Assembly: GCA_015065685.1 (NCBI GenBank)
Contig: SVPU01000009.1
Location: 1 to 63,215, forward strand
DNA from: Oscillospiraceae bacterium
Lineage (GTDB): Bacteria > Bacillota > Clostridia > Oscillospirales > Acutalibacteraceae
DNA length: 63,215 nt
Direction of reading: 5' to 3'
The notes under the pieces were generated by a model. It was not told the DNA's origin. It searched no databases and saw only the letters and a list, made by a program, of their open reading frames with translations. Shown here one piece after another: positions 864-31,366 of this stretch. A program made the translations under genes and the position numbers. The stretch's first letter is position 1, and every line of letters starts with the position of its first letter.

Positions 864-939
<76 letters not shown>

Positions 940-7826: not shown

Positions 7827-8933
7827 TCAGTGGAGCTTAACATCTATCCAAAGCATTTCGTAATGCATGCGGATTTCATCCTCTATATCGTGGTAATACT
7901 GTACCTTGGGGGTATCTTTCTCATCGGGGTATAGTATTTTATTTTGATAATAGTAATAATCGGGGTTGTTTATAACCGCAGTGTTTGGCGATGCATAACC
8001 GATATAATCAGCGTTAGCTGTTGCAATTTCGGGCTCTAGAAGAAAGTTGATATACATAAGCGCTGCCTCATAATTTTTTGAGGACTTGGGAATACAGATA
8101 GAATCTATAAAGATATTTGTGCCTTCCTCGGGGTAGAAGAATTCCAAATCCGAATTGACTTCCTTCATTGTTAGATAGTCGCCAGCATAATATGGGGCTA
8201 TTGCGGCTTCGCCGGTTTCCATTTTACCGTAAACCTCATCCATTACATAAGACTGAAGATTGTCTTTACCTTTTTTAAGGAGCTCAGCAGCGGCTTCCCA
8301 ATCGGCTTTGTTGGTCGAATTAAGGTCTTGCCCCAAAAGCATTTGCGCGGTCATAAAGGCATCGCGCGGGTTGTTGAAATTAAGTGCCTTGTCCTTATAT
8401 TTTTTATCCCACAAAACATTCCACGAATGTTCAATATCGGCGCCGACCTGGGCGGTGTTGTAAATAACACCAACCATACCCACGCTGTAAGGAACGCTGT
8501 ATTTATTTTCGGGGTCGAAATACACATTCTTATATTTTTCATCAATTAAGTGATAATTTGAAATTTTGGATGTGTCAATCTCCAAAAGCTCATTTTCGCG
8601 GATAAGCCGTTCAATCATATAATCCGAAGGGATTATGATATCGTAGGTGATAGCGCCGCTTTTGATTTGCGAATACATTGTCTCGTTGCTTTCGAACATC
8701 AAATAGTTAACGTTAATACCCGTAAGGCGTTCGAATTCGGCATTAACATCTATCATATCATCGCTACCATCAGAAATGTATTCACCCCAGTTGTAAACCG
8801 TGATAGATGTGCCCGCCAAATCGCGTGTGTAGTTACTCTTAAGGTCAAGATCAAAATACTTGTAAGAATATTCACAAGCGCAAAGCGAAAGAATAAGTGC
8901 AAAACACAAAAGAAGGGTTAAAAGCTTTTTCAT
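7827..8933 (-). CDS. potD: Polyamine ABC transporter substrate-binding lipoprotein
   Basis: A 368-residue extracellular lipoprotein that captures spermidine or putrescine for the PotABC importer. The signal peptide ends in a lipobox-like LCAC with Cys20 as the likely lipidated residue. The mature part has the family's TSITVYNWGEYI opening, NYLMFESNETMYSQIKSG, IIIPSDYMIERL and PYSVGMVGVIYNT, in the usual order. It is the last gene of the potABCD operon, starting one base after potC with AAGGAGGG inside the potC end as its ribosome-binding site. No terminator is obvious between it and the converging M14 gene. Substrate choice between putrescine and spermidine cannot be decided here. Confidence 0.93.
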   Translation of the reverse strand: MKKLLTLLLCFALILSLCACEYSYKYFDLDLKSNYTRDLAGTSITVYNWGEYISDGSDDMIDVNAEFERLTGINVNYLMFESNETMYSQIKSGAITYDIIIPSDYMIERLIRENELLEIDTSKISNYHLIDEKYKNVYFDPENKYSVPYSVGMVGVIYNTAQVGADIEHSWNVLWDKKYKDKALNFNNPRDAFMTAQMLLGQDLNSTNKADWEAAAELLKKGKDNLQSYVMDEVYGKMETGEAAIAPYYAGDYLTMKEVNSDLEFFYPEEGTNIFIDSICIPKSSKNYEAALMYINFLLEPEIATANADYIGYASPNTAVINNPDYYYYQNKILYPDEKDTPKVQYYHDIEDEIRMHYEMLWIDVKLH

Positions 8934-21184: not shown

Positions 21185-23473
21185 ATGAAGCTTTGTTCAA
21201 AGTGTAAAAAACGCCCGGCAGTTGTTTTTATGTCGGATATGTCTAACCCAAACGCAGAGCCGCAGGGTCTTTGTCTTGTTTGTGCAAAGGAAATGGGTAT
21301 AAAGCCTGTTGATGATATGCTTAAGAGAATGAATATTTCTGATGAAGATATCGAGCAGATGAGTGAACAGTTTATGGATTTAATGTCGGTCGATGATATG
21401 GATGACGCGGCACTAAATGATGAAACTTTTGACCTTGGCACAGCCCCTGCAATGCCGTTTATAAATAAAATTTTTAATAGCTTTACGGGTGAAAAGTCCG
21501 AAAAGGAAACAAAATCCGAAAACGGTGAAGCCAAGGAAAAGGAGCCCAAGAAAAAGCGCCGCAGATTTATGGAGCAATATTGCACCAACCTTACCGAAAA
21601 GGCAAGGGAGGGCAAAATTGATGTTATAATCGGCAGAGATAAAGAGCTTTACCGAACAATTCAAATTCTTTCCAGAAGAACTAAAAATAATCCTTGCCTT
21701 ATTGGCGAGCCTGGTGTTGGTAAAACCGCTATTGCAGAGGGCTTGGCGCTTCAAATTGCAAACGGCAAAGCCCCTGCGAGACTTCTTGACAAAGAAATTT
21801 TCTTGCTTGACCTTACGGGTCTTGTGGCAGGAACACAGTTCAGAGGTCAGTTTGAAAGCCGTGTTAAAGGCCTTGTTGAAGAAATTAAGTCGGCAGGGAA
21901 TATTATTCTCTTTATTGATGAAATTCACAATCTTGTGGGCGCGGGCGATTCTGCCGAGGGCTCTATGAATGCCGCCAATATTTTAAAGCCCGCTTTGTCG
22001 AGAGGCGAAATTCAGGTTATCGGCGCCACAACCTTTAAGGAATATAGAAAATATATCGAAAAGGATGCCGCGCTTGAGCGCCGCTTCCAGCCCGTAACCA
22101 TAGAGGAGCCCTCAATCAGCGAGGCTATCAATATTCTTATGGGTGTTAAGGGCTATTACGAGGGCTTCCATAATGTTGTTATTCCCGATAGCATTATAAG
22201 AAAAGCGGTTACACTTTCCGAAAGATATGTAACCGACAGATACTTGCCCGATAAGGCCATTGACCTTTTGGATGAGGCTTGCGCGTGCGCGAGTCTTGAA
22301 AACAAGGCTATTGACGAGCTTTGTCTTGCTAACAAAAAGGTGGCAGAGTGCTCAGTTAAGCTTGAAGAATTGGAAGCAGATGTTGAAAATCCCAACTATG
22401 AGCAACAAGCACTTGTTAAAGCCGACCTTGAAAAATATAAGAAAATGGCCGAATCGCTTTATGAGCCCGCTTCCAATAATACAGTTAAGGATTCGGACAT
22501 AGCAAAGGTTATTGAGCTTTGGACAGGTATTCCGGCAACCAAGGTAGAAGAAAGCGATTTCCAAAAGCTTTCTCAGCTTGAGGATGAACTCAATAAGAAG
22601 ATTATCGGTCAAGGCGAGGCTACAAAGCTCGTGGCTTCGGCAGTTAAGCGCTCGAGGGTTAAAACGGGAAATCAGCACCGCCCCGCATCGTTTATCTTTG
22701 TGGGCCCCACAGGTGTTGGAAAAACACAGCTTGTGAAAATTCTCTCTGAGCAGTTATTTGATACACCCGAAACACTTATCCGCCTTGATATGTCGGAATT
22801 TATGGAGAAGCACTCGGTTTCAAGAATAATCGGAGCGCCTCCCGGATATGTTGGATATGATGAGGCGGGTCAGCTCACAGAAAAGGTGAGAAGAAAGCCT
22901 TATTCGGTAGTGCTTTTTGATGAAATTGAAAAAGCACACCCCGATGTGCTTAATATTCTTTTGCAGATTCTTGATGATGGCAGAATCACCGATGCGGGCG
23001 GCAGAACAGTTAATTTTGAAAACACAATTATTGTTATGACCTCTAATGCGGGAAGTGATAGAAGCGATAATCTTTTAGGCTTTGGTAAAACCGTTGCAGA
23101 TGCTTCAAAGGAAAAGGCGATGAAGGCTTTAGAAGAGTTTTTGCGACCCGAGTTCATTGCAAGAGTTGATGAAATTGTTGTTTTCTCACCGCTTAGTGAG
23201 GCTTCAATGGTTAAAATTGCGGCATTAATGCTTGACGAATTAAAGCCATCTCTTGAAGAAAAGGGTATTGCATTTAATTACGATAAGAAAATATGCGAAT
23301 ATTTAGCCGCTAAAGCAACCAACGCAAAGCGCGGTGCAAGAGAGCTCAGAAACGCAATAAGAAGAGAAATTGAAAGCAGAATAGTTGATGCAATAATTGA
23401 AGATGTGAAACAAGAAATTAAAGAGATTTCAGTTTCTGCAGATTCGAAAGAGATAAAGGTTAATATTAAATAA
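21185..23473 (+). CDS. clpE: ClpE-like AAA+ chaperone with N-terminal zinc finger
   Basis: A 762-residue double AAA+ unfoldase. Cys4, Cys7, Cys30 and Cys33 form a zinc finger in place of the double Clp-N repeat, the arrangement of ClpE. AAA-1 has Walker A GEPGVGKTA and Walker B ILFIDEIHNL; a short coiled middle domain follows (about 405-450); AAA-2 has GPTGVGKTQ and VVLFDEIEKAH. The sequence LLGFGK after the second sensor region supplies the LGF loop that docks on ClpP, so it can probably feed a protease. No CtsR or McsAB genes are next to it and no CIRCE or CtsR box was recognised. It ends at a strong terminator. Confidence 0.9.
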   Translation: MKLCSKCKKRPAVVFMSDMSNPNAEPQGLCLVCAKEMGIKPVDDMLKRMNISDEDIEQMSEQFMDLMSVDDMDDAALNDETFDLGTAPAMPFINKIFNSFTGEKSEKETKSENGEAKEKEPKKKRRRFMEQYCTNLTEKAREGKIDVIIGRDKELYRTIQILSRRTKNNPCLIGEPGVGKTAIAEGLALQIANGKAPARLLDKEIFLLDLTGLVAGTQFRGQFESRVKGLVEEIKSAGNIILFIDEIHNLVGAGDSAEGSMNAANILKPALSRGEIQVIGATTFKEYRKYIEKDAALERRFQPVTIEEPSISEAINILMGVKGYYEGFHNVVIPDSIIRKAVTLSERYVTDRYLPDKAIDLLDEACACASLENKAIDELCLANKKVAECSVKLEELEADVENPNYEQQALVKADLEKYKKMAESLYEPASNNTVKDSDIAKVIELWTGIPATKVEESDFQKLSQLEDELNKKIIGQGEATKLVASAVKRSRVKTGNQHRPASFIFVGPTGVGKTQLVKILSEQLFDTPETLIRLDMSEFMEKHSVSRIIGAPPGYVGYDEAGQLTEKVRRKPYSVVLFDEIEKAHPDVLNILLQILDDGRITDAGGRTVNFENTIIVMTSNAGSDRSDNLLGFGKTVADASKEKAMKALEEFLRPEFIARVDEIVVFSPLSEASMVKIAALMLDELKPSLEEKGIAFNYDKKICEYLAAKATNAKRGARELRNAIRREIESRIVDAIIEDVKQEIKEISVSADSKEIKVNIK

Positions 23474-23479
23474 GAAAAG

Positions 23480-23508
23480 TAGCCACTGTTTGAACAGTGG
23501 CTATTTTT
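23480..23508 (+). terminator. Intrinsic terminator of the long plus-strand run
   Basis: TAGCCACTGTT and AACAGTGGCTA form an 11-bp perfect stem separated by TG, followed by T5. Confidence 0.9.
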
Positions 23509-23517
23509 AATAAAATA

Positions 23518-23546
23518 TTGCATTTTATTTTTTTATGTGGTAAAAT
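23518..23546 (+). promoter_or_regulatory. Promoter of the folded RNA
   Basis: TTGCAT, 17 bases, TAAAAT, with TG one base before the -10. Transcription would begin at or next to the first base of the outer stem of the RNA. Confidence 0.65.
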
Positions 23547-23552
23547 GTAGAT

Positions 23553-23772
23553 GCCAAACTAACTGAATATTGTGTGAAATTGGGTGTATTTTCTTTTTTA
23601 TGGGATAATTACGCTTGTTTTTCGCAACCTAAAATTGTTATGAATTTGATAAAAATGCAAATTTCGACGATTGTAGGTTGCGAGCGTTTTACGCCCTATT
23701 TCACACTCGGTTAGTTTGGCGACTATCGGAGTTTGCGTTTTTTGTGCGTCTGCTTCGGTGGGCGCACTTTTT
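23553..23772 (+). ncRNA. Candidate structured RNA with own promoter and terminator
   Basis: The segment folds into a long rod. Outer stem: 23553-23563 with 23710-23720, 11 bp perfect (GCCAAACTAAC). Next: 23572-23580 with 23698-23706, 9 bp perfect, continued by GGGTGT (23582-23587) with ACGCCC (23691-23696). Then ACGCT (23611-23615) with AGCGT (23683-23687), the 10-bp stem TCGCAACCTA (23622-23631) with TAGGTTGCGA (23674-23683), and a smaller apical stem at 23643-23663. A terminator follows: 10-bp stem 23744-23767 with a TTCG loop, then T5. A promoter sits at the correct distance upstream. I cannot assign it to a known class; standalone clostridial RNAs such as the raiA motif should be tested. 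It could also be a leader controlling the surface protein gene 75 bases downstream. Confidence 0.6.
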
Positions 23773-23778
23773 ATTTTT
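23744..23778 (+). terminator. Terminator ending the folded RNA
   Basis: GTGCGTCTGC and GTGGGCGCAC pair over ten positions with three G-U pairs and a TTCG tetraloop, followed by TTTTTATTTTT. Confidence 0.8.
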
Positions 23779-23845: not shown

Positions 23846-26173
23846 ATGAAAAAATTATTAGCAATTATTTTAACAGTTTGCTTAATGCTAACTGTTGTAC
23901 CGCTTGGGTTATTTGGAATGACCGCAAGTGCGTTAACTAATGGTTACTATACCTATACCGTCGAAAACGGCGAAGCAACCATAACCAGTTGCGATACTTC
24001 AATCAGCGGTGATATAACCATTCCGAGCATTTTAGGTGGTTATGAGGTTACGAGTATAGGTTATAGGGCATTTTATTTTTGCAAAAATCTTACAAGTATT
24101 GAAATACCTGACAGTGTAACAAGTATTGATGCATCGGCGTTTGAGAGATGCGAAAGTCTTGTAAACATAACAATCGGCGGTAGTGTAAAAAGTATTGACG
24201 GACGAGCATTTGATTTTTGTAATAATCTCACAAGTATTAATGTAGATTCGAATAATCCTAATTTCTTATCTGAAGACGGTATATTGTTTAATAAAGACAA
24301 AACAAATCTTATCCGTTGTCCTGCTGGTAAAAACGCGACAACATATACCATTCCTGATAGTGTTAAAAACATATGCAATAAGGCATTTTATGGGTGCAGA
24401 AGTCTTAAAAGCATAACAATCCCAGATAGTGTTACTAGTATTGGCGAAGGTGCGTTTGCTGGTACTGTTTATTACAATTTGTATTATGGCGAGTGGTTAA
24501 ACAGTGCACTTTATATTGGAAATCATTTAATAGAAGCTGATTCTGGAATAACAGGTAATTATCAAATAAAACCCGGTACAAAAACCATTGCTGATGGAGC
24601 GTTTTGCAATAGCAGTAGTCTTAAAAGCATCACCATTCCTGATAGTGTTACAAGTATAGGTGCTTCTGCGTTTGGATTTTGTGATGCTCTTGAAAGTGTG
24701 ATTATTGGTAATTCTGTTACAAGTATAGGCAATTCTGCATTTGAATACTGTGAAAGTCTTACGAGTATCACCATTCCTGATAGTGTTACAAGTATAGGCG
24801 GTTCTGCCTTTGCTTGGTGTGGTCCTCTTAAAAGTGTAATTATTGGTAATTCTGTTACAAGCATTGAAGATAATATATTTGAAGGTTGTTATGCTCTTGA
24901 AAGTATAATTATTGGTGATTCTGTTACAAGTATAGGTAATAATACATTTGAAGATTGTGGCGTTCTTGAAAGTGTAATTATTGGTGATTCTGTTACAAGT
25001 ATAGGTGATTGGGCATTTGCTGGTTGCAACAGTCTTACAAGTATCACTATCCCCGAAAATGTTAAAAGCATAGGTTATAAAGCATTCAGAGGTTGCGAAA
25101 ACCTTACAAGTATCACTATTCCAAAAGGTCTTATCGATCTTAATTCTTCCGCATTTATGGATTGTTGTAACCTTACAGACGTATGGTATACAGGAAGCGA
25201 AGCCGATAAAAATAATATTCCTAATATTTCTTACAGTGAGGAATTGATGAATGCTACATGGCACTATAATTCTATTATTGTTGATGTTGCCGCAACAAAG
25301 GGTACATTAACAGGTACTCTTGGATTTGCTTATAACACACCTATTAATTTTGAGATTGATGAAGGTGCAACGGCTTACGGTGTTGAGGTTTCACGCTCGG
25401 CAGATGATAGCAACCCTGTGGATATTCAATTTGAAAAGGGTGAAAAAACTGTTGTCGGAATTTCTAATATTTCGCTTTATGCTATTACAAGAGAATATAC
25501 CTTTAAGCCATATGCCATTGTTAACGGAGAAAAAGTATACGTCCCATCATTCACATCATCTTATGCAGAGTTCCTTGTTTCTAAAAAGGACCACGCAACC
25601 TATGGCGCAAACGTGAGAAACATTCTTGATACATACGCCGCCGCAACAGGTGAGATGCTTTATGAAGGCCAAGTGCCTAATTTAGAGTCTGCCCCCGAAG
25701 GCGCGTGGGTTGCTGCTAACGGGTACACCGAAAGCAGTGAAGGTGGTTACGGTCTTGCCGCAGCAAACCCTGTACAAGGAAGTTTAACTGGCGGTAAATT
25801 AAGAGTGAATTTCAATCTCCCGACCAATGCAGAAAATAACGGCGTTTTGGTTTATAAATGGGGTAATGAATTCAACGCTGATGACATTTCAAATGCATTT
25901 GCAAATGTTGTTTTCGAAGCAGGAGATTTGAGAAGCATTGACATCACTAACATTGCTTTTGCAAATATTGCAAAACAATATACCTTTGTTCCTTATGAAT
26001 ATGATACCGAGTTCGAGTCTTATACATTCGGCAAGGTTTCGAAGGCTTCTTTTGCTGACTTTGTAGCGTATGCTCTCAATAAAGGAAATGCCGCACAAAA
26101 AGCTCAGGCTTATGGAATCTGCAAGGCTTATAAAGCCGCATACGGCAAAGACCTTTGTAAAATTGTTGAGTAA
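23846..26173 (+). CDS. BspA-type leucine-rich-repeat surface protein
   Basis: A 775-residue exported protein. The signal peptide MKKLLAIILTVCLMLTVVPL ends near an ASA cleavage site at about residue 31. From about 50 to 450 it is made of LRR_5 (BspA-like) units of roughly 23 residues with the pattern ITIPDSVTSIGxxAFxxCxxL; at least a dozen are visible, one interrupted by an insertion near 130-170 and another near 212-245. The last 300 residues are a non-repeat region containing two related beta-rich segments starting TKGTLTGTLGFAYN and VQGSLTGGKLRVNFN. There is no LPXTG motif and no obvious C-terminal anchor. GAGGTG lies seven bases before the ATG. BspA-type proteins usually act in adhesion; the ligand is unknown. 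Confidence 0.87.
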   Translation: MKKLLAIILTVCLMLTVVPLGLFGMTASALTNGYYTYTVENGEATITSCDTSISGDITIPSILGGYEVTSIGYRAFYFCKNLTSIEIPDSVTSIDASAFERCESLVNITIGGSVKSIDGRAFDFCNNLTSINVDSNNPNFLSEDGILFNKDKTNLIRCPAGKNATTYTIPDSVKNICNKAFYGCRSLKSITIPDSVTSIGEGAFAGTVYYNLYYGEWLNSALYIGNHLIEADSGITGNYQIKPGTKTIADGAFCNSSSLKSITIPDSVTSIGASAFGFCDALESVIIGNSVTSIGNSAFEYCESLTSITIPDSVTSIGGSAFAWCGPLKSVIIGNSVTSIEDNIFEGCYALESIIIGDSVTSIGNNTFEDCGVLESVIIGDSVTSIGDWAFAGCNSLTSITIPENVKSIGYKAFRGCENLTSITIPKGLIDLNSSAFMDCCNLTDVWYTGSEADKNNIPNISYSEELMNATWHYNSIIVDVAATKGTLTGTLGFAYNTPINFEIDEGATAYGVEVSRSADDSNPVDIQFEKGEKTVVGISNISLYAITREYTFKPYAIVNGEKVYVPSFTSSYAEFLVSKKDHATYGANVRNILDTYAAATGEMLYEGQVPNLESAPEGAWVAANGYTESSEGGYGLAAANPVQGSLTGGKLRVNFNLPTNAENNGVLVYKWGNEFNADDISNAFANVVFEAGDLRSIDITNIAFANIAKQYTFVPYEYDTEFESYTFGKVSKASFADFVAYALNKGNAAQKAQAYGICKAYKAAYGKDLCKIVE

Positions 26174-26214
26174 TCTTAAGATTATCAAAGCCTATGAAAA
26201 GGAGAGTAATAATT

Positions 26215-26331
26215 ATGAAATTTGAAATGCCTGAAATTGAGGTTTATTCATTTGATTTAAACCAAAATATCGCTGCTTTAAAAGGCGATGAGGTTGTAAT
26301 AAGTAAGGGCGAAATTTCTAATGCATTTTAA
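26215..26331 (+). CDS. 38-residue peptide gene
   Basis: A short frame with a good AAGGAG ten bases before the ATG. The product starts MKFEMPEIEVYSFDLNQNI and is mildly acidic, without Cys residues or a membrane segment. Short Clostridia peptides beginning with this kind of M-K-x-E-x-P-x-x-E-V pattern are frequent and usually unannotated. It begins 41 bases after the surface-protein stop on the same strand and is followed by a terminator, so it is probably the second gene of that unit. Function unknown; a precursor peptide is one option but no maturase is nearby. Confidence 0.55.
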   Translation: MKFEMPEIEVYSFDLNQNIAALKGDEVVISKGEISNAF

Positions 26332-26380
26332 TTAAATAAAATGATTTGTAAAGACGGTAACGGTTTCGTTACACAACAAA

Positions 26381-26412
26381 ATATCCGCTGTTTGCACAGC
26401 GGATATTTTTTT
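26381..26412. terminator. Intrinsic terminator between converging units
   Basis: ATATCCGCTGT and ACAGCGGATAT, 11 bp perfect with a TTGC loop, followed by T7 on the plus strand and TTTTGTTG on the minus strand. Confidence 0.85.
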
Positions 26413-26419
26413 ATTTTAA

Positions 26420-27100
26420 TTAAAGTAAATTTTCGAGTTCTGAAAGTTTCTTTATTTCATAGGTTATTTTATATTCTGTTTTTTTGTGATTTGGGTTAAA
26501 CCAGCAGGTATCAATATTTGAATTGATGCCGCCCAAAATATCAGAGCTAAGACTATCTCCAACAACCAACATTTTAGAGCGGTCCTTTTCGGGAATATTA
26601 TCTATAACATAATCAAAATATTCCTTTTCGGGCTTTTGGTGTCCCGCACTCTCGGAAACGAATATATCATCAAAATATTTTTCTATCCCTGAATTTTTAA
26701 TTCTTCTGTATTGTGTTGAAGCAAGGCCGTTTGTTGTGGCATAAAGCCGATAGCCCTTTGCGGTGAGATATTCGAGAATATCTATGGCACCGTCAATCTT
26801 AAAATACTGAACTGAAAGCTCATTTTTATAGTCTTCTGAAATAGCCGCGGTATCGGCTTTTTGATTAAAAAATTCGGCGAAGGTTCTAAAACGACCCTCA
26901 TATATTTCATTTTTTTCTATTTCGCCTTTTTCAAAACGCTCCCAATAGGTTTGGTTTATAGCGGAATATTTGGCGATAGCGGCCTCGTTGTGAGGTAGAC
27001 CGTGGTTTTTAAGCACAGTGCCAACCGCAACCTCTTCGGCTTTGGTAAAATCAAGCAAGGTGTTATCAATATCTAAAAAAAGGGATGTGTATTTTACCAT
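26420..27100 (-). CDS. YjjG-type HAD hydrolase (pyrimidine 5'-nucleotidase family)
   Basis: A 226-residue HAD phosphatase. Motif I is FLDIDNTLLDF (Asp10 and Asp12 region), motif II is ATTNGLA, motif III uses the Lys in GHQKPEKEYF, and motif IV is VVGDSLSSDILGG. The helical cap between motifs I and II and the overall length fit YjjG, which removes phosphate from dUMP, dTMP and other nucleotides. Last gene on the minus strand before the terminator; 19 bases from its upstream neighbour. Confidence 0.88.
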   Translation of the reverse strand: MVKYTSLFLDIDNTLLDFTKAEEVAVGTVLKNHGLPHNEAAIAKYSAINQTYWERFEKGEIEKNEIYEGRFRTFAEFFNQKADTAAISEDYKNELSVQYFKIDGAIDILEYLTAKGYRLYATTNGLASTQYRRIKNSGIEKYFDDIFVSESAGHQKPEKEYFDYVIDNIPEKDRSKMLVVGDSLSSDILGGINSNIDTCWFNPNHKKTEYKITYEIKKLSELENLL

Positions 27101-27119
27101 TTTTAACTCCCGTCAAATT

Positions 27120-27947
27120 TTATTTAAGGAATGAATATAAAAGCGACATAACAAGGGGAATTTCACTCACGGTTATGAGAATTATAATTCCGACAAAAAG
27201 CATACCGCCTGAAACTCCGCCTAATGAAATTAAGCCGAGATTATAATACCGTGAATCTTTAACAGAAGATTTAAAAGCATTTATTTTTTTTATGCAATGT
27301 TTCTTGTAAATGTAATAACCGTATAGTCCGCAAATAATTGAGGTGCCGAGTCCTGTTATACTTTCAATAAAATCCGCGAATTTTGAAGCAGGGGTTTCGG
27401 TGTTGTCGGACTCGAGAAATTCCTCAAGAGTAGTTAATGCACCTATATAATCGCCGTTTTTAAAACTATCCGCAGCCTTATCAAAAATTTCGGGGTTGGC
27501 GGTGGCGGTAAAAAATGAAGTTAGTATTATAATAACTGTGCCAACTATAGAAAGAATAACGGCGGGTTTATACATTTTGCGGTAGAAAAACCATAAAGCC
27601 GCGCCGATAGGACCCAAAAACAAACCTAAAACGGAGGCGGGCCAACACCAAGAAACTTTAGAATCGGAGACTTCCATTTTGCAGAATTTAGGTAAAATTT
27701 CATATTCCTTGCGACCAACAAAAAGCGCCACATCTTCTCTCGGAACACCATCAAATTCTTCAACGCAATCATAAAGGAAATATTTATTGCCAAACCTTTG
27801 TGCTTTTATGTAATCGTTGCTTTGGAAATCACTTTTAGGTGATGCTTTGGATTCCTCTTTTTCAAAGAGAGGAGTGCCGCAGTTTTTGCAATATTTATAA
27901 TCCTGTTCATTTTCTGTTCCGCATTCGTTACAAATATTTTTATTCAT
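27120..27947 (-). CDS. Zinc-ribbon membrane protein
   Basis: A 275-residue protein. A zinc ribbon CNECG...CKNCG occupies residues 6-24. A soluble linker follows, then about four membrane segments; LPKFCKMEVSDSKVSWCWPASVLGLFLGPIGAALWFFYRKMYKPAVIL resembles the DUF2628 membrane family and mirrors the corresponding block in the next gene upstream, so the two are paralogues that differ in their N-terminal zinc module. I chose the ATG at 27947, which has AAGGA eight bases upstream. Function unknown. Confidence 0.72.
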   Translation of the reverse strand: MNKNICNECGTENEQDYKYCKNCGTPLFEKEESKASPKSDFQSNDYIKAQRFGNKYFLYDCVEEFDGVPREDVALFVGRKEYEILPKFCKMEVSDSKVSWCWPASVLGLFLGPIGAALWFFYRKMYKPAVILSIVGTVIIILTSFFTATANPEIFDKAADSFKNGDYIGALTTLEEFLESDNTETPASKFADFIESITGLGTSIICGLYGYYIYKKHCIKKINAFKSSVKDSRYYNLGLISLGGVSGGMLFVGIIILITVSEIPLVMSLLYSFLK

Positions 27948-27960
27948 TTTCAAAATCCTT

Positions 27961-28890
27961 TCATAGAAGACTAAAAATTATAACCGGAAGATACTGTAAA
28001 GCAAAATATGAAAGCAAGAATATGAACATATCAACGCTGCCTTTTCTGCGGTAGTCAAATTCTATATCTTCGCTTTCGGCTTTAATCTTTTTAACCTTTT
28101 GAATAACATGATTGCGATATAAGGAATCGCCCTTAAGACCGCAAAATATGCGTATCGCCAATTCAGATATTGCGCTGAAAAAACATGCGGCTAATAAGAA
28201 TGGATTGATTTGCGGCATAACCTCATAAAGTCTTTTAACCATTTCTGTAGTGGATTCCAGGCCCAGAACACCGAGGTTATTTAAAGCCACTTGTAAAGGA
28301 AACGAAAATAGCACCACCGAAATAAGCAAAACTGCAGTTATAACGCCATTCTTGAACATTTTTCTTGAAAACATCCACTGTGCAGGGAATAAGAAAGCAA
28401 GCCAGTTCCACGAGGTTTTCTTGCCGTTTTGAAGCATAACAAACCTAGGGAGATAGCGCTGGGTGTTAACCGCAACAAATTTCTTAACATCGTTTGCTGT
28501 TACATTATCATCAAACTTATGATCTTCAGGCACGCCGCCTAACAAATCAAAAGAATTAAAATGCTCGTAATTCTTCAAGTTGGGAGTGCCGCATTTGGGG
28601 CACGCTTTAAGTGCACTGTCATAGTTTTCAGAACACATTTTACAAACGGTTGTATCAGAGTCTTGAGAATTGGTTTGTGCTTTTTCTTCCTCGGCAACTT
28701 CTTGTGTGGGCTCGGGTTTTGAGTATTCATTTTCGGTTCCGTGAAATTCCTCTAAAGCACAGTGGCCTAAGGCATTATAGCATTCTCTGTGATGAGGTGC
28801 CCCGCAAATTGGACAGTAAATAACATCGTCTTCTTCAAATAGATAGGACTTGCATCGTACACAATTTATGCCGTCTATTTGCTTACTCAT
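27961..28890 (-). CDS. RING-like zinc-finger and DUF2628-type membrane protein
   Basis: A 309-residue protein with two zinc modules: a prokaryotic RING-like finger at about 9-45 (CVRC, then CPICGAPHHRECY, then C) and a zinc ribbon near 83-102 (CKMCSENYDSALKACPKCG). After a linker, the motif LPRFVMLQNGKKTSWNWLAFLFPAQWMFSRKM leads into four to five membrane segments. The start overlaps the stop of the Nudix gene by four bases. Proteins like this are annotated in Clostridia only as zinc-ribbon or DUF2628 proteins. It may sense or bind a partner at the membrane; nothing in the sequence says what. Confidence 0.75.
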   Translation of the reverse strand: MSKQIDGINCVRCKSYLFEEDDVIYCPICGAPHHRECYNALGHCALEEFHGTENEYSKPEPTQEVAEEEKAQTNSQDSDTTVCKMCSENYDSALKACPKCGTPNLKNYEHFNSFDLLGGVPEDHKFDDNVTANDVKKFVAVNTQRYLPRFVMLQNGKKTSWNWLAFLFPAQWMFSRKMFKNGVITAVLLISVVLFSFPLQVALNNLGVLGLESTTEMVKRLYEVMPQINPFLLAACFFSAISELAIRIFCGLKGDSLYRNHVIQKVKKIKAESEDIEFDYRRKGSVDMFIFLLSYFALQYLPVIIFSLL

Positions 28891-29411
28891 GCTAACACAC
28901 CTCTGAAATTGCTGATTTTTTCGAAAACCCTTGAAAAATATTCGTTTCCGTAATTGTGGAAATTACCGTTTTTTATCATTTCTTTGAACTCTTGCTCGGT
29001 TACGAGCTTAACCTCTGATACCTCAGAAGCTTGAAGCTTTAAATTCTCTATCGGGGTATCGCAAACGGTGAACCATATATCTAACAAAGAATTACGCCTT
29101 TTAATGCGAAGAATTTTTTTGAGGGTTTCTTTTGTTGAAGAAATGCTGAGTTCCTCAAAAAGCTCGCGCTTGGCGGCTGAAAAAGAATCCTCTCCCGAAA
29201 TTGCGGCACCGCCTGTTGCGGCCCATTCGCCAGGCATATGCTTTTTTGTATCCGAACGGCGCTGAATTAAAAATCTTCCGTCCCTTGTCATTATCCAGAT
29301 ATGCACAACTAAATGATACTCGCCGCTACCGAGAAAATTTCTGCCGCGAAGGGTGGTTTTTCCGGTTGGAGTACCGTTTTCGTCAAGTATATCCCATTTT
29401 TCAGTTATCAT
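28887..29411 (-). CDS. Nudix hydrolase, IPP-isomerase-like subgroup
   Basis: A 174-residue protein with the opening EKWDILDENGTPTGKTTLRG and a Nudix box GAAISGEDSFSAAKRELFEELSI at about 68-90; the last Gly of the box is Ser. The lead-in HLVVHIWIMTRDGRFLIQRRS and HMPGEWAATGGA are typical of the subgroup related to isopentenyl diphosphate isomerase and YfcD. The isomerase itself needs further Cys and Glu residues that I do not see, so a pyrophosphatase is more likely. First gene of a minus-strand set with the two zinc-finger genes. Confidence 0.82.
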   Translation of the reverse strand: MITEKWDILDENGTPTGKTTLRGRNFLGSGEYHLVVHIWIMTRDGRFLIQRRSDTKKHMPGEWAATGGAAISGEDSFSAAKRELFEELSISSTKETLKKILRIKRRNSLLDIWFTVCDTPIENLKLQASEVSEVKLVTEQEFKEMIKNGNFHNYGNEYFSRVFEKISNFRGVLA

Positions 29412-29513
29412 ATTTTTATTACCTCGTCGGTTTTGTCATAAATAGTGTTTTTAATACTTATTAATCATTATAGCAATAATATTATTTTTTTTCAACATTT
29501 TCTGTGTTGGGTA

Positions 29514-29542
29514 TTGTAAAAAAATAAAAATTGTGTTAAAAT
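29514..29542 (+). promoter_or_regulatory. Promoter of SRP RNA
   Basis: TTGTAA, 17 bases, TAAAAT with TG one base before the -10. Confidence 0.65.
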
Positions 29543-29548
29543 CATATA

Positions 29549-29706
29549 AGATGAGTTTTGCGTATCGAAGTGTGCGAATGGGCAGGTCCTGTGCGACGGG
29601 GCGCTACGAACCATGTCAGGCGGGGAACCGAGCAGCATTAAGTAGTTTTCTCCGTGCGCCGCAGTCAATCGGTTCATTCGTACACTTGGATGCGCAAATT
29701 GTTTTT
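29549..29706 (+). ncRNA. ffs: Signal recognition particle RNA
   Basis: The conserved helix 8 core is present: GTCAGG, CGG, a GGAA tetraloop, CCG, then AGCAGC. The ends pair over more than 20 positions (TTTGCGTATC and GATGCGCAAA outermost), and the 3' arm runs into TTGTTTTTTATT. At about 150 bases it is longer than E. coli 4.5S RNA but shorter than the Bacillus RNA with its Alu domain, which I do not see here. Position directly before dnaX is the usual one in Firmicutes. End coordinates are good to a few bases. Confidence 0.92.
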
Positions 29707-29731
29707 TATTGAATTTTAATGAGGTGAAAAA

Positions 29732-31366
29732 ATGGCATATCAAGCGCTTTACAGAAAATATCGTCCACAAACATTTTCTGAGGTTTCGGGGCAAGAGCAT
29801 ATAACCGAAACACTCAAAAATGAGCTTGCGAGCGGCAAAACTGTTCACGCTTATCTTTTCACGGGAACAAGGGGAACGGGAAAAACCAGTTGTGCCAAAA
29901 TTTTGGCAAAGGCAATCAACTGCACCGCACATAAAAATGGCGACCCTTGCCTTGAGTGTGAAAGCTGCAAAAATATTGCGTCTGGCGAGAATACCGATAT
30001 TGTTGAGATTGATGCGGCTTCTAACAACAGTGTTGACAGTATTAGAGAGCTGCGAGACCTTATAAACTTTTCACCCGCCAATTCAAAATACCGCGTTTAT
30101 ATCATAGATGAGGTTCATATGCTGAGTATCAGTGCATTTAATGCGCTTCTTAAAACTCTCGAAGAACCGCCTGAGCATGTTATATTTATTTTGGCAACAA
30201 CCGAGGTGCACAAGCTTCCCGCAACAATTCTTTCGAGGTGCCAGCGATTTGATTTCAGAAGAATTGATAACGAGAAAATTTGCGAAAGATTGCAGTTTAT
30301 CGCAAAAGAAGAGGGGCTTTCCTTAACTGATGACGCAGCAACACTAATAGCTGCAGCAGCCGATGGCGGAATGCGAGATGCACTCTCAATTCTTGACCTT
30401 TGCGCTTCAAGCAGCAAGGAGATTGATGAAAATATAGTCGAAACCGTTTGTGCAATGGCGGGTAATGAATATCTTTTGGAAATGGCCGATTGCATTAAGG
30501 CTAAGGATACCGAAAAGGCTTTGATGCTTATTGATAGGCTACACAATTCCTCGGTTGATATGCAAAGGCTTCTTTCAGAGCTCACCGCGCATTATCGCGA
30601 CCTGATGATTGTTAAAACTGTTAAGGGTAAAAAGAAGCCTATAATCTGCTCGGCAGCCAAATTAAAGGCGCTTAATTCACAAGCAGAAAGCTATGATATA
30701 AGAGAGATAATGTATGCATTATCGGTTTTGAGCTCGGCATTTTCTGCTATGCAAACAGGCAACCGCAGATGCGAAATGGAAATGGCAATTATAAAAATGT
30801 GCAATCCATCTCTCTCGGCGGATATTGAAGCTCTGGAATTAAGAATAAGTGCGCTCGAAAAAGGAAATTTTGCTTCGGCACCGCCAAAGGTTGAAGAAAG
30901 AGCTGCCGAAGCGATAACCGAAGAGCCGGAAATTTCACAAGAGAATGAAAACGAAGATTACAATGAGGAAATTCCGCTTCCCACTGAAGAGGATTTGCCC
31001 CCTTCGGAGCCGACCGAAGACGCGACCGCTTCAAAAGAGCCGATAAGCGATGAGTTAACAGAGCTCTCAAGATGGAAAGAGGTGCTCTCAAGGCTCACGG
31101 TAGAATGTCCGCTTATTGCGGGCGTTTTAAAGGGCTCTAAGGCTTATACTAAAGGCGATTTTCTTCTTATCGATGCGCCAAATAGTCAATTCCGTTCGCT
31201 TATAAACAGCGGAAACGCTTATTATAAAAATAGCATCAGAAAAGCGGCTTTAAGTGTGCTCGGACATACCTATAAGCTGGGACCATATTCGCCCGAAAAG
31301 CCAAAGGATGAGACCGACCCACTAACACAGTTAGCTGAAAGACTTAAAAATTTTGAAATAAACTGA
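29732..31366 (+). CDS. dnaX: DNA polymerase III subunits gamma/tau
   Basis: A 544-residue clamp-loader subunit. Walker A GTRGTGKTS, zinc-binding Cys residues in CTAHKNGDPCLECESC, Walker B VYIIDEVHMLS and the SRC arginine-finger motif in TILSRCQRF are intact. After about residue 370 there is an acidic linker rich in Glu and Pro, then a short C-terminal tau region. No internal frameshift slip site is obvious. It heads dnaX-ybaB-recR. Confidence 0.95.
   Translation: MAYQALYRKYRPQTFSEVSGQEHITETLKNELASGKTVHAYLFTGTRGTGKTSCAKILAKAINCTAHKNGDPCLECESCKNIASGENTDIVEIDAASNNSVDSIRELRDLINFSPANSKYRVYIIDEVHMLSISAFNALLKTLEEPPEHVIFILATTEVHKLPATILSRCQRFDFRRIDNEKICERLQFIAKEEGLSLTDDAATLIAAAADGGMRDALSILDLCASSSKEIDENIVETVCAMAGNEYLLEMADCIKAKDTEKALMLIDRLHNSSVDMQRLLSELTAHYRDLMIVKTVKGKKKPIICSAAKLKALNSQAESYDIREIMYALSVLSSAFSAMQTGNRRCEMEMAIIKMCNPSLSADIEALELRISALEKGNFASAPPKVEERAAEAITEEPEISQENENEDYNEEIPLPTEEDLPPSEPTEDATASKEPISDELTELSRWKEVLSRLTVECPLIAGVLKGSKAYTKGDFLLIDAPNSQFRSLINSGNAYYKNSIRKAALSVLGHTYKLGPYSPEKPKDETDPLTQLAERLKNFEIN

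Follow-up and report, generated by a model that had tools for sequence, protein, structure and literature searches.

A putative three-helix transcription-attenuation leader dispersed with accessory genes of gut Clostridia

A segment at positions 23518 to 23775 (+) of the window, the whole 63,215-nucleotide stretch of Oscillospiraceae DNA analyzed here, is best read from its sequence and that of its relatives as a member of an attenuator-leader class that is absent from Rfam 15, undescribed as far as our searches reach, and dispersed with accessory genes of gut Clostridia. We put at roughly three in four the probability that it would act in cis as a transcription-attenuation leader in which three helices share one tail, and we have much lower confidence in any particular signal for it. 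The helices, their conservation and covariation, and their place before genes can be read directly from the copies compared.

All parts of the window copy lie on the plus strand, in the order extended −10 promoter element, rod, near-invariant tail, UUCG terminator, start codon. With the −10 element, TGTGGTAAAAT, at 23536 to 23546 and the 5′ arm of P1 at 23553 to 23565, transcription would begin where the rod does, at about 23551 to 23553; the output of a generic sigma-70 promoter scan did not include the TGTGGTAAAAT promoter. The minimum free energy (MFE) fold continues with the 5′ arm of P2 (23572 to 23588), a large asymmetric loop that contains GGGATAATTA and is a putative hinge (23589 to 23616), the 5′ arm of P3 (23623 to 23642), and the rod-tip hairpin (23643 to 23664), and returns through the 3′ arms of P3 (23666 to 23682), P2 (23690 to 23706), and P1 (23708 to 23720, supported also by pair conservation). 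At the tip, alignment and swap tests mark out a 15-mer, AAAAATGCAAATTTC (23651 to 23665), as the complement of the tail. The tail itself spans 23721 to 23743; its bases 23728 to 23742 pair with the tip, and 23723 to 23732 form the 5′ arm of the antiterminator. The rod closes at 23720, and 23 nt further on begins the stem (23744 to 23767) of the intrinsic terminator, which extends with its U run to 23772 and was recognized by a terminator scan and by covariation. The 3′ arm of the antiterminator (23752 to 23761, from alignment and a swap test) consists of the terminator loop and the first bases of the terminator 3′ arm. Behind the leader, at 23846 to 26173, lies the gene for a 775-aa BspA-type leucine-rich-repeat protein (LRR_5, E = 1.7e-93, first 478 aa).

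A blastn search of 99 related genomes, the source genome included, gave matches in 42, and a covariance model placed relatives in at least 45 of the genus's 61 genomes, the richest of which had 11 listed matches (some listed matches are opposite-strand echoes of a listed copy, as is one of the 11 in genome G007); these genome-search counts are lower bounds, only part of the first-look candidates having been scored. Under stricter filters, the covariance model matched the source genome alone in a 119-genome sample of the phylum. The source genome has one close and one diverged copy; the latter, L180 (G000:C12:24515-24689, minus strand), stands before a gene that reads like that of a secreted protein. 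The exact tail pattern was present in at least 119 stretches of genome contigs, and its carriers among the matches listed were uncultured Clostridia, many of them from herbivore gut samples, together with Pumilibacter intestinalis (Pumilibacteraceae). When up to three mismatches were allowed, the tail occurred in 24 of 394 genomes of the order, with one or two copies in each, and in 20 of 168 genera, its spread over families being patchy; a reversed control pattern had no match in the same 394 genomes. Plasmids gave no leader match. A search of viral contigs for the tail found none, and a search for the tip found one contig, which carries a diverged leader. Among phages there was one partial hit, over 19% of the query, in MT835503.1 (1 to 6000, locus L177), an unverified phage entry from human faeces that has a diverged leader; its genes, read by eye, are presumably an EcoRI-type methylase behind the leader and then MATE and ABC transporters; the scaffold is likely a bacterial contig rather than a phage.

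Copies take two main forms, a long one of about 200 to 225 nt, as in the window, and a short one of about 155 to 175 nt. The parsed set comprised 118 copies; 10 others were unparsable, and duplicates and copies too near contig ends were skipped. Since 91 of the 118 were found by the exact tail, the invariance of the tail among those reflects how they were selected. A diverged set of 40 loci, mostly of the short form, is called type II, and an alignment designated A1 holds 43 copies that are less than 70% identical to each other.

The long rod-like fold proposed by an earlier, sequence-only reading of the window is borne out. The stretch 23518 to 23775 (+) has an MFE of −96 kcal/mol (z = −9.28; none of 200 shuffles matched it), and the rod by itself, 23551 to 23722, gives z = −10.97; the reverse strand folds too, more weakly (z = −7.17). 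The extended −10 element at the foot of the rod and the UUCG-loop terminator with its T run after the rod, which completed that proposal, are likewise present. Among 132 copies (a survey that left out L026, for which the pattern was too strict), the inner rod had z below −2 in 131, with a mean of −5.8. In A1, the 10 outer pairs of P1 were held in 100% of cells, and 4 of them had changed on both sides; pairing was kept in 99.5% of cells for the terminator and 91.7% for the tip hairpin. Together these three stems covary, with two-sided changes at 14 of 30 pairs, a level reached in 0 of 500 shuffles, and with a covariation score of 0.280 against at most 0.079 in slid registers. A TAnnnT motif lies within 22 nt before P1 in all 118 parsed copies, where the choice of P1 favored this outcome, and before P1 in 38 of the 40 diverged copies.

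The asymmetric loop measures 22 nt on its 5′ side and 2 nt on its 3′ side in the window copy, with medians of 31 and 2 nt across the 132 copies. The earlier suggestion that a conserved site lies here thus holds insofar as the loop is kept as a feature, while its part as a hinge is a matter of interpretation. Measured along the 3′ strand, the medians for the rod's two halves are 28 and 30 nt, which would allow the rod to fold in half; yet the two lengths correlate negatively (r = −0.31) where a strict fold in half might predict a positive correlation, and half-folding therefore stays a presumption.

Three helices compete for the tail: the 15-bp helix with the tip, the antiterminator, and the terminator. 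The tip-tail helix is fully paired (15/15) in 121 of 133 copies, and the antiterminator (10/10) in 123 of 133. Of the 643 cells in A1 that set the tip 15-mer against the tail, 99.2% are standard pairs, as are 99.3% of the 430 that set one antiterminator arm, CUAUCGGAGU, against the other, RCUUCGGURG. Both helices are nearly invariant in that alignment, and many shuffles reach the observed values; because they vary so little, their support within A1 rests on complementarity. Covariation of the two stems comes mainly from the diverged copies, which are themselves interrelated. Counting G-U pairs, the tail could also pair elsewhere in the rod: its best alternative site without gaps reaches 11 to 13 of 15 pairs in 127 copies out of 133, 14 in four, and 15 in one. 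The antiterminator was computed to be stabler than the terminator in 116 of 133 copies, with medians of −14.9 and −13.8 kcal/mol.

Swap tests compared the pairing energy of each copy's own partners with that in 2000 permutations among copies. A first run, which excluded L180, picked the tip by pairing energy, a choice that favors own partners; a repeat run picked it by motif and excluded 6 of 173 copies, including L216 and L222, which the first run had retained and for which the model match looks truncated. In the diverged set, own tip-tail partners (38 copies, tip by motif) averaged −15.48 against −12.48 for permuted ones (sd 0.39), and own tail-terminator loop partners (40 copies) −14.21 against −11.75 (sd 0.42); in both tests 0 of 2000 permutations were as good, the permutations being among related copies with kinship ignored. 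The long form and all copies combined behaved likewise, the long-form differences being small (0.14 and 0.15 kcal/mol).

Individual copies illustrate how partners change together. In L158, GAGG replaces GGAG in the tail and CTTC replaces TTCC in the tip. L151, L153, and L154 have CAATC for CTATC in the tail, accompanied by TTG for TRG in the terminator, so that the T-to-A change at the second antiterminator pair is met in all three by T in place of A or G opposite; L178 shows it too. L180, with CAAAG for CGGAG in its tail, has a matching base in the terminator loop (CTTTG) for the first change and in the tip for the second, and leaves one of four tail positions unpaired with the tip (A against C). 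Compensatory changes occur in L214 and L236 as well. Among the diverged loci, all four tail pentamers whose second base is A (CAGAG twice, CAAAG, and TAAAG) are matched by T in the loop (CTCTG or CTTTG); three diverged copies with G at that base also have a loop T, with which a G-U pair is still possible. Mismatches at the second antiterminator pair are T opposite T in seven copies and C opposite T in one.

These helices suggest the following model. RNA polymerase would start at the foot of the rod, and the asymmetric loop would probably let the rod fold in half, bringing the tip to the tail. In the presumed OFF state, the 15-bp tip-tail helix would hide the antiterminator arm and so leave the terminator free; the UUCG terminator would then form, and transcription would stop before the gene. 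In the presumed ON state, with the tail free of the tip, CUAUCGGAGU would pair with the terminator loop and 3′ arm (RCUUCGGURG), a partner that would be transcribed before the terminator 3′ arm is complete, and polymerase would read through into the gene. A cellular signal, whether metabolite, ion, or protein, would probably shift the balance by binding the rod.

The position of the copies is that expected of a leader. An ORF follows in 111 of the 118 parsed copies, and its start codon lies 66 to 72 nt past the CTATC of the tail, or 16 to 22 nt past the U run, in 57 of them; in 81 it lies no more than 92 nt past the tail (42 nt past the U run), and in 30 at least 100 nt past the tail. The window copy has its start codon 73 nt past the U run. 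In the diverged set, a Shine-Dalgarno (SD) sequence and an ATG occur within 90 nt in 32 of 40 copies, 29 of these at 15 to 23 nt past the terminator, and 8 of the 40 have no SD plus ATG within that distance. The sequence-only reading had entertained both a standalone RNA and a leader controlling the downstream gene; the start codons close behind the terminator and the covarying antiterminator favor the latter, and on this evidence we take the stretch to be a 5′ leader and not a standalone RNA. A leader peptide read from the ATG in the tip was considered and set aside, its T being replaced by C in 20 of 118 copies and by A in 2.

The genes behind the leader have little in common. Among 111 first genes, 16 encode BspA-type leucine-rich-repeat proteins, 6 AMP-binding proteins, 5 zinc ribbon proteins, 3 dockerin proteins, and 2 EcoRI-type methylases. 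By a simple ad hoc signal-peptide rule, 51 of 93 genes behind the leader look secreted or membrane anchored, against 10 of 102 upstream neighbors; by the same rule, so do 12 of 32 in the diverged set. Anti-phage defense as a shared theme was rejected, with type II methyltransferase in 2 of 111 and four other models in 1 each.

Such diversity bears on what might set the switch. It is possible, though clearly short of an even chance, that a protein, or the transcription or translation machinery, binds the rod and chooses the fold, much as protein-dependent attenuation works elsewhere; such control would suit any gene. Some rod bases in the window copy are conserved without an evident need for pairing, namely AATA after P1 (at least 90% in A1) and, more loosely, a GGGATA-like motif in the asymmetric loop, and these speak for such a reading; against it, no common partner gene was found among the downstream genes or among 60 neighbors scanned from 13 tRNA-linked loci, and the patchy spread over families would need a partner in all hosts. 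Somewhat less probable is an attenuator with no ligand, constitutive or stochastic, whose helices would set a fixed low or a variable read-through for new cargo. The near-equal computed energies of terminator and antiterminator would fit it, as would functionally unrelated genes that point to no pathway from which a ligand might be guessed, but a 150-nt rod with a kept asymmetric loop would be a costly way to fix a ratio, and the tip-tail pairing has been retained over large divergence. That the terminated 220-nt RNA is instead a trans-acting product of a mobile promoter, with the gene behind it incidental, is very unlikely: it has its own promoter and terminator, and many genomes of the genus hold several copies, but the start codon lies within 42 nt of the terminator in 81 of 111 copies and close to it in 29 of 40 diverged ones, and the antiterminator covaries.

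The leader is also dispersed. Copies whose flanks and genes are unrelated can be as much as 96% identical over the leader block, the borders of which are often near the −10 element and just past the terminator. Among 1488 pairs of copies with an alignment across the leader, the match ran on for over 150 nt on the upstream side in 8 and on the downstream side in 3, some being cut short by the end of a contig. Two pairs of loci are instructive. L171 and L172 share a collinear stretch of 7.5 kb (75%) that ends, as homology does, at the terminator; between the terminator and the gene that directly follows the leader in L172, L171 has an extra gene for 172 aa (7840 to 8355), for which there was no Pfam match. 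The gene shared by the two loci has a form in L010 that is 47% identical to the BspA-type protein of the window. L134 and L139 agree at 81% as far as the terminator; some 200 extra nt follow in L134, and then the two are 98% identical over an AMP-binding gene.

Some of the copies, not all, are on recognizable islands. A co-oriented tRNA gene lies within 1.5 kb upstream in 20 of 115 copies, with 2 opposed upstream, 2 in the same direction downstream, and 0 opposed downstream, in a survey that covered slightly fewer bases downstream (150,106) than upstream (158,495). Upstream protein genes are co-oriented with the leader at the usual rate (56 against 22 near the leader, 141 against 55 in general), so the bias in orientation is limited to tRNA genes. 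In L047, L060, and L134, the 3′ end of the tRNA gene is repeated past the cargo (at least 45 nt exact), as in site-specific integration, and L060 has a phage-type integrase between tRNA and leader. In L173 and L174, the leader-gene unit lies between repeats of what we take to be the 3′ end of a sporulation protease gene. Several details of these islands may be recorded. L070, L134, and L139 have a gene for a 23S rRNA-intervening-sequence (S23-type) protein between tRNA and leader. Islands of 1.3 to 3.2 kb sit at tRNA-Arg(CCT) in L134 (1217 to 5714) and L047 (2379 to 4393), bounded by exact repeats of 45 nt or more; a right end of about 190 nt in which GCTAAT-like words recur is common to L139, L070, L099, and in part L053 and L170. 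No integrase was found among the ORFs scanned inside the tRNA-Arg(CCT) islands, one unit of which contains a nucleotidyltransferase/HEPN pair.

Sharp borders and dispersal raise the question of whether the block is selected as DNA, as a hairpin recombination site or a MITE-like element that moves itself before genes, and the sequence-only reading had named a dispersed MITE as the finding that would undo it. The block is indeed dispersed with sharp borders, homology stops at the 3′ end of the leader in L171/L172 and L134/L139, and att-like repeats surround some leader-gene units, yet those att-like repeats that were examined are found at the 3′ end of a tRNA or a gene and not where the leader ends, and flanking repeats occur around 8 of 62 loci, compared with 74 of 1104 control positions within them, a control that also catches these repeats. 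Copies stand preferentially before start codons; there are two in the source genome; and no exact direct repeat of 12 nt or more joins 23300 to 23530 with 26101 to 30500 around the window unit, the best matches to whose flanks are never on one contig (genomes compared by eye). Homologous exchange within the leader could account for the borders. A covarying antiterminator and a preferred distance to the start codon would be superfluous in a pure DNA element, and we consider selection of the block as DNA very unlikely.

For a correctly placed leader with a covarying antiterminator, we offer more tentatively a role as a gate for mobile cargo. One family of signal-sensing attenuators, with a half-folding rod and a tail common to three helices, may have been adopted by unrelated and partly island-borne accessory genes across gut Clostridia, such that cargo arriving by any route would answer one cellular signal and the leader would serve as the joint at which cargo is exchanged. 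If the attenuator reading is right, an RNA switch outside Rfam is common to uncultured gut Clostridia, before surface and other accessory genes, and offers a handle on how horizontally acquired genes are held off or on. There are well over a hundred natural copies to learn from, and the pairing of the tail with both the rod tip and the terminator loop yields clear, testable predictions.

The scan of Rfam that the sequence-only reading had called for gave no match to the leader at gathering threshold, which supports its suggestion of a new class as far as Rfam 15 and the titles and abstract openings listed reach. Among those titles and abstract openings, none described such a leader, and the tail 16-mer was absent from the papers searched. 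In Rfam 15, nothing at 23518 to 23775 reached the gathering threshold, and a search up to E = 10 gave 12 hits, all far below their gathering scores; the best, RsaJ (E = 0.0015, 23.2 bits with 100 needed), fell on the minus strand at a hairpin at 23480 to 23503. This inverted repeat lies just 3′ of the upstream ORF, presumably Clp-type, and is terminator-like on the minus strand; the low-scoring Rfam hits trace to it. The window's only matches at gathering threshold were a bacterial small SRP RNA (29580 to 29678, plus strand) and a tRNA (867 to 939, minus strand). Forty loci with relatives gave one tRNA only at that threshold, and a search of two loci up to E = 0.5 gave four hits, all below gathering scores.

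The raiA motif (RF03072), the first candidate of that reading, fell away: it was not among the 12 hits, its covariance model matched neither the window copy nor any of 40 related loci, and it found nothing in the source genome, as it found nothing in 14 control genomes. The RNA of that motif, ModT, is likewise about 200 nt long, structured, and present in Bacillota; as excerpted, the published account presents it as a noncoding RNA of very high abundance, currently modeled with eight paired regions and two pseudoknots (PMC11706538). Whereas ModT is noncoding in that excerpt, here 81 of 111 copies, and 29 of the 40 in the diverged set, have a start codon closely behind the terminator. Integron attC sites end in RYYYAAC and GTTRRRY at the cassette junction; the P1 ends in the window, GCCAAAC and GTTTGGC, differ from these at one position, other copies have quite unlike ends, and P1 is followed by a conserved tail, so an attC site was rejected. 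Putative mobile promoters are nearly identical promoter blocks before unrelated genes, whereas here the block amounts to some 220 nt of covarying leader, terminator included, and some of its loci are on tRNA-linked islands. In cobalamin-type riboswitches, a distant loop-loop contact decides the expression platform; the distant contact predicted here is alike in kind but would be a 15-bp helix between rod tip and tail, and has no such Rfam match. Closest in general kind are the transcription-terminating riboswitches and attenuators of Bacillota, which combine a 5′ leader, a sensor, an antiterminator, and a terminator. The copies resemble them in having a 5′ leader with a structured, putative sensor part, an intrinsic terminator between the leader and the start codon of the gene behind, and a predicted antiterminator that excludes the terminator and is kept by covariation; they differ from those riboswitches in having no Rfam-matched aptamer and no common pathway behind them, and in a tail that would pair with the tip of the sensor rod itself.
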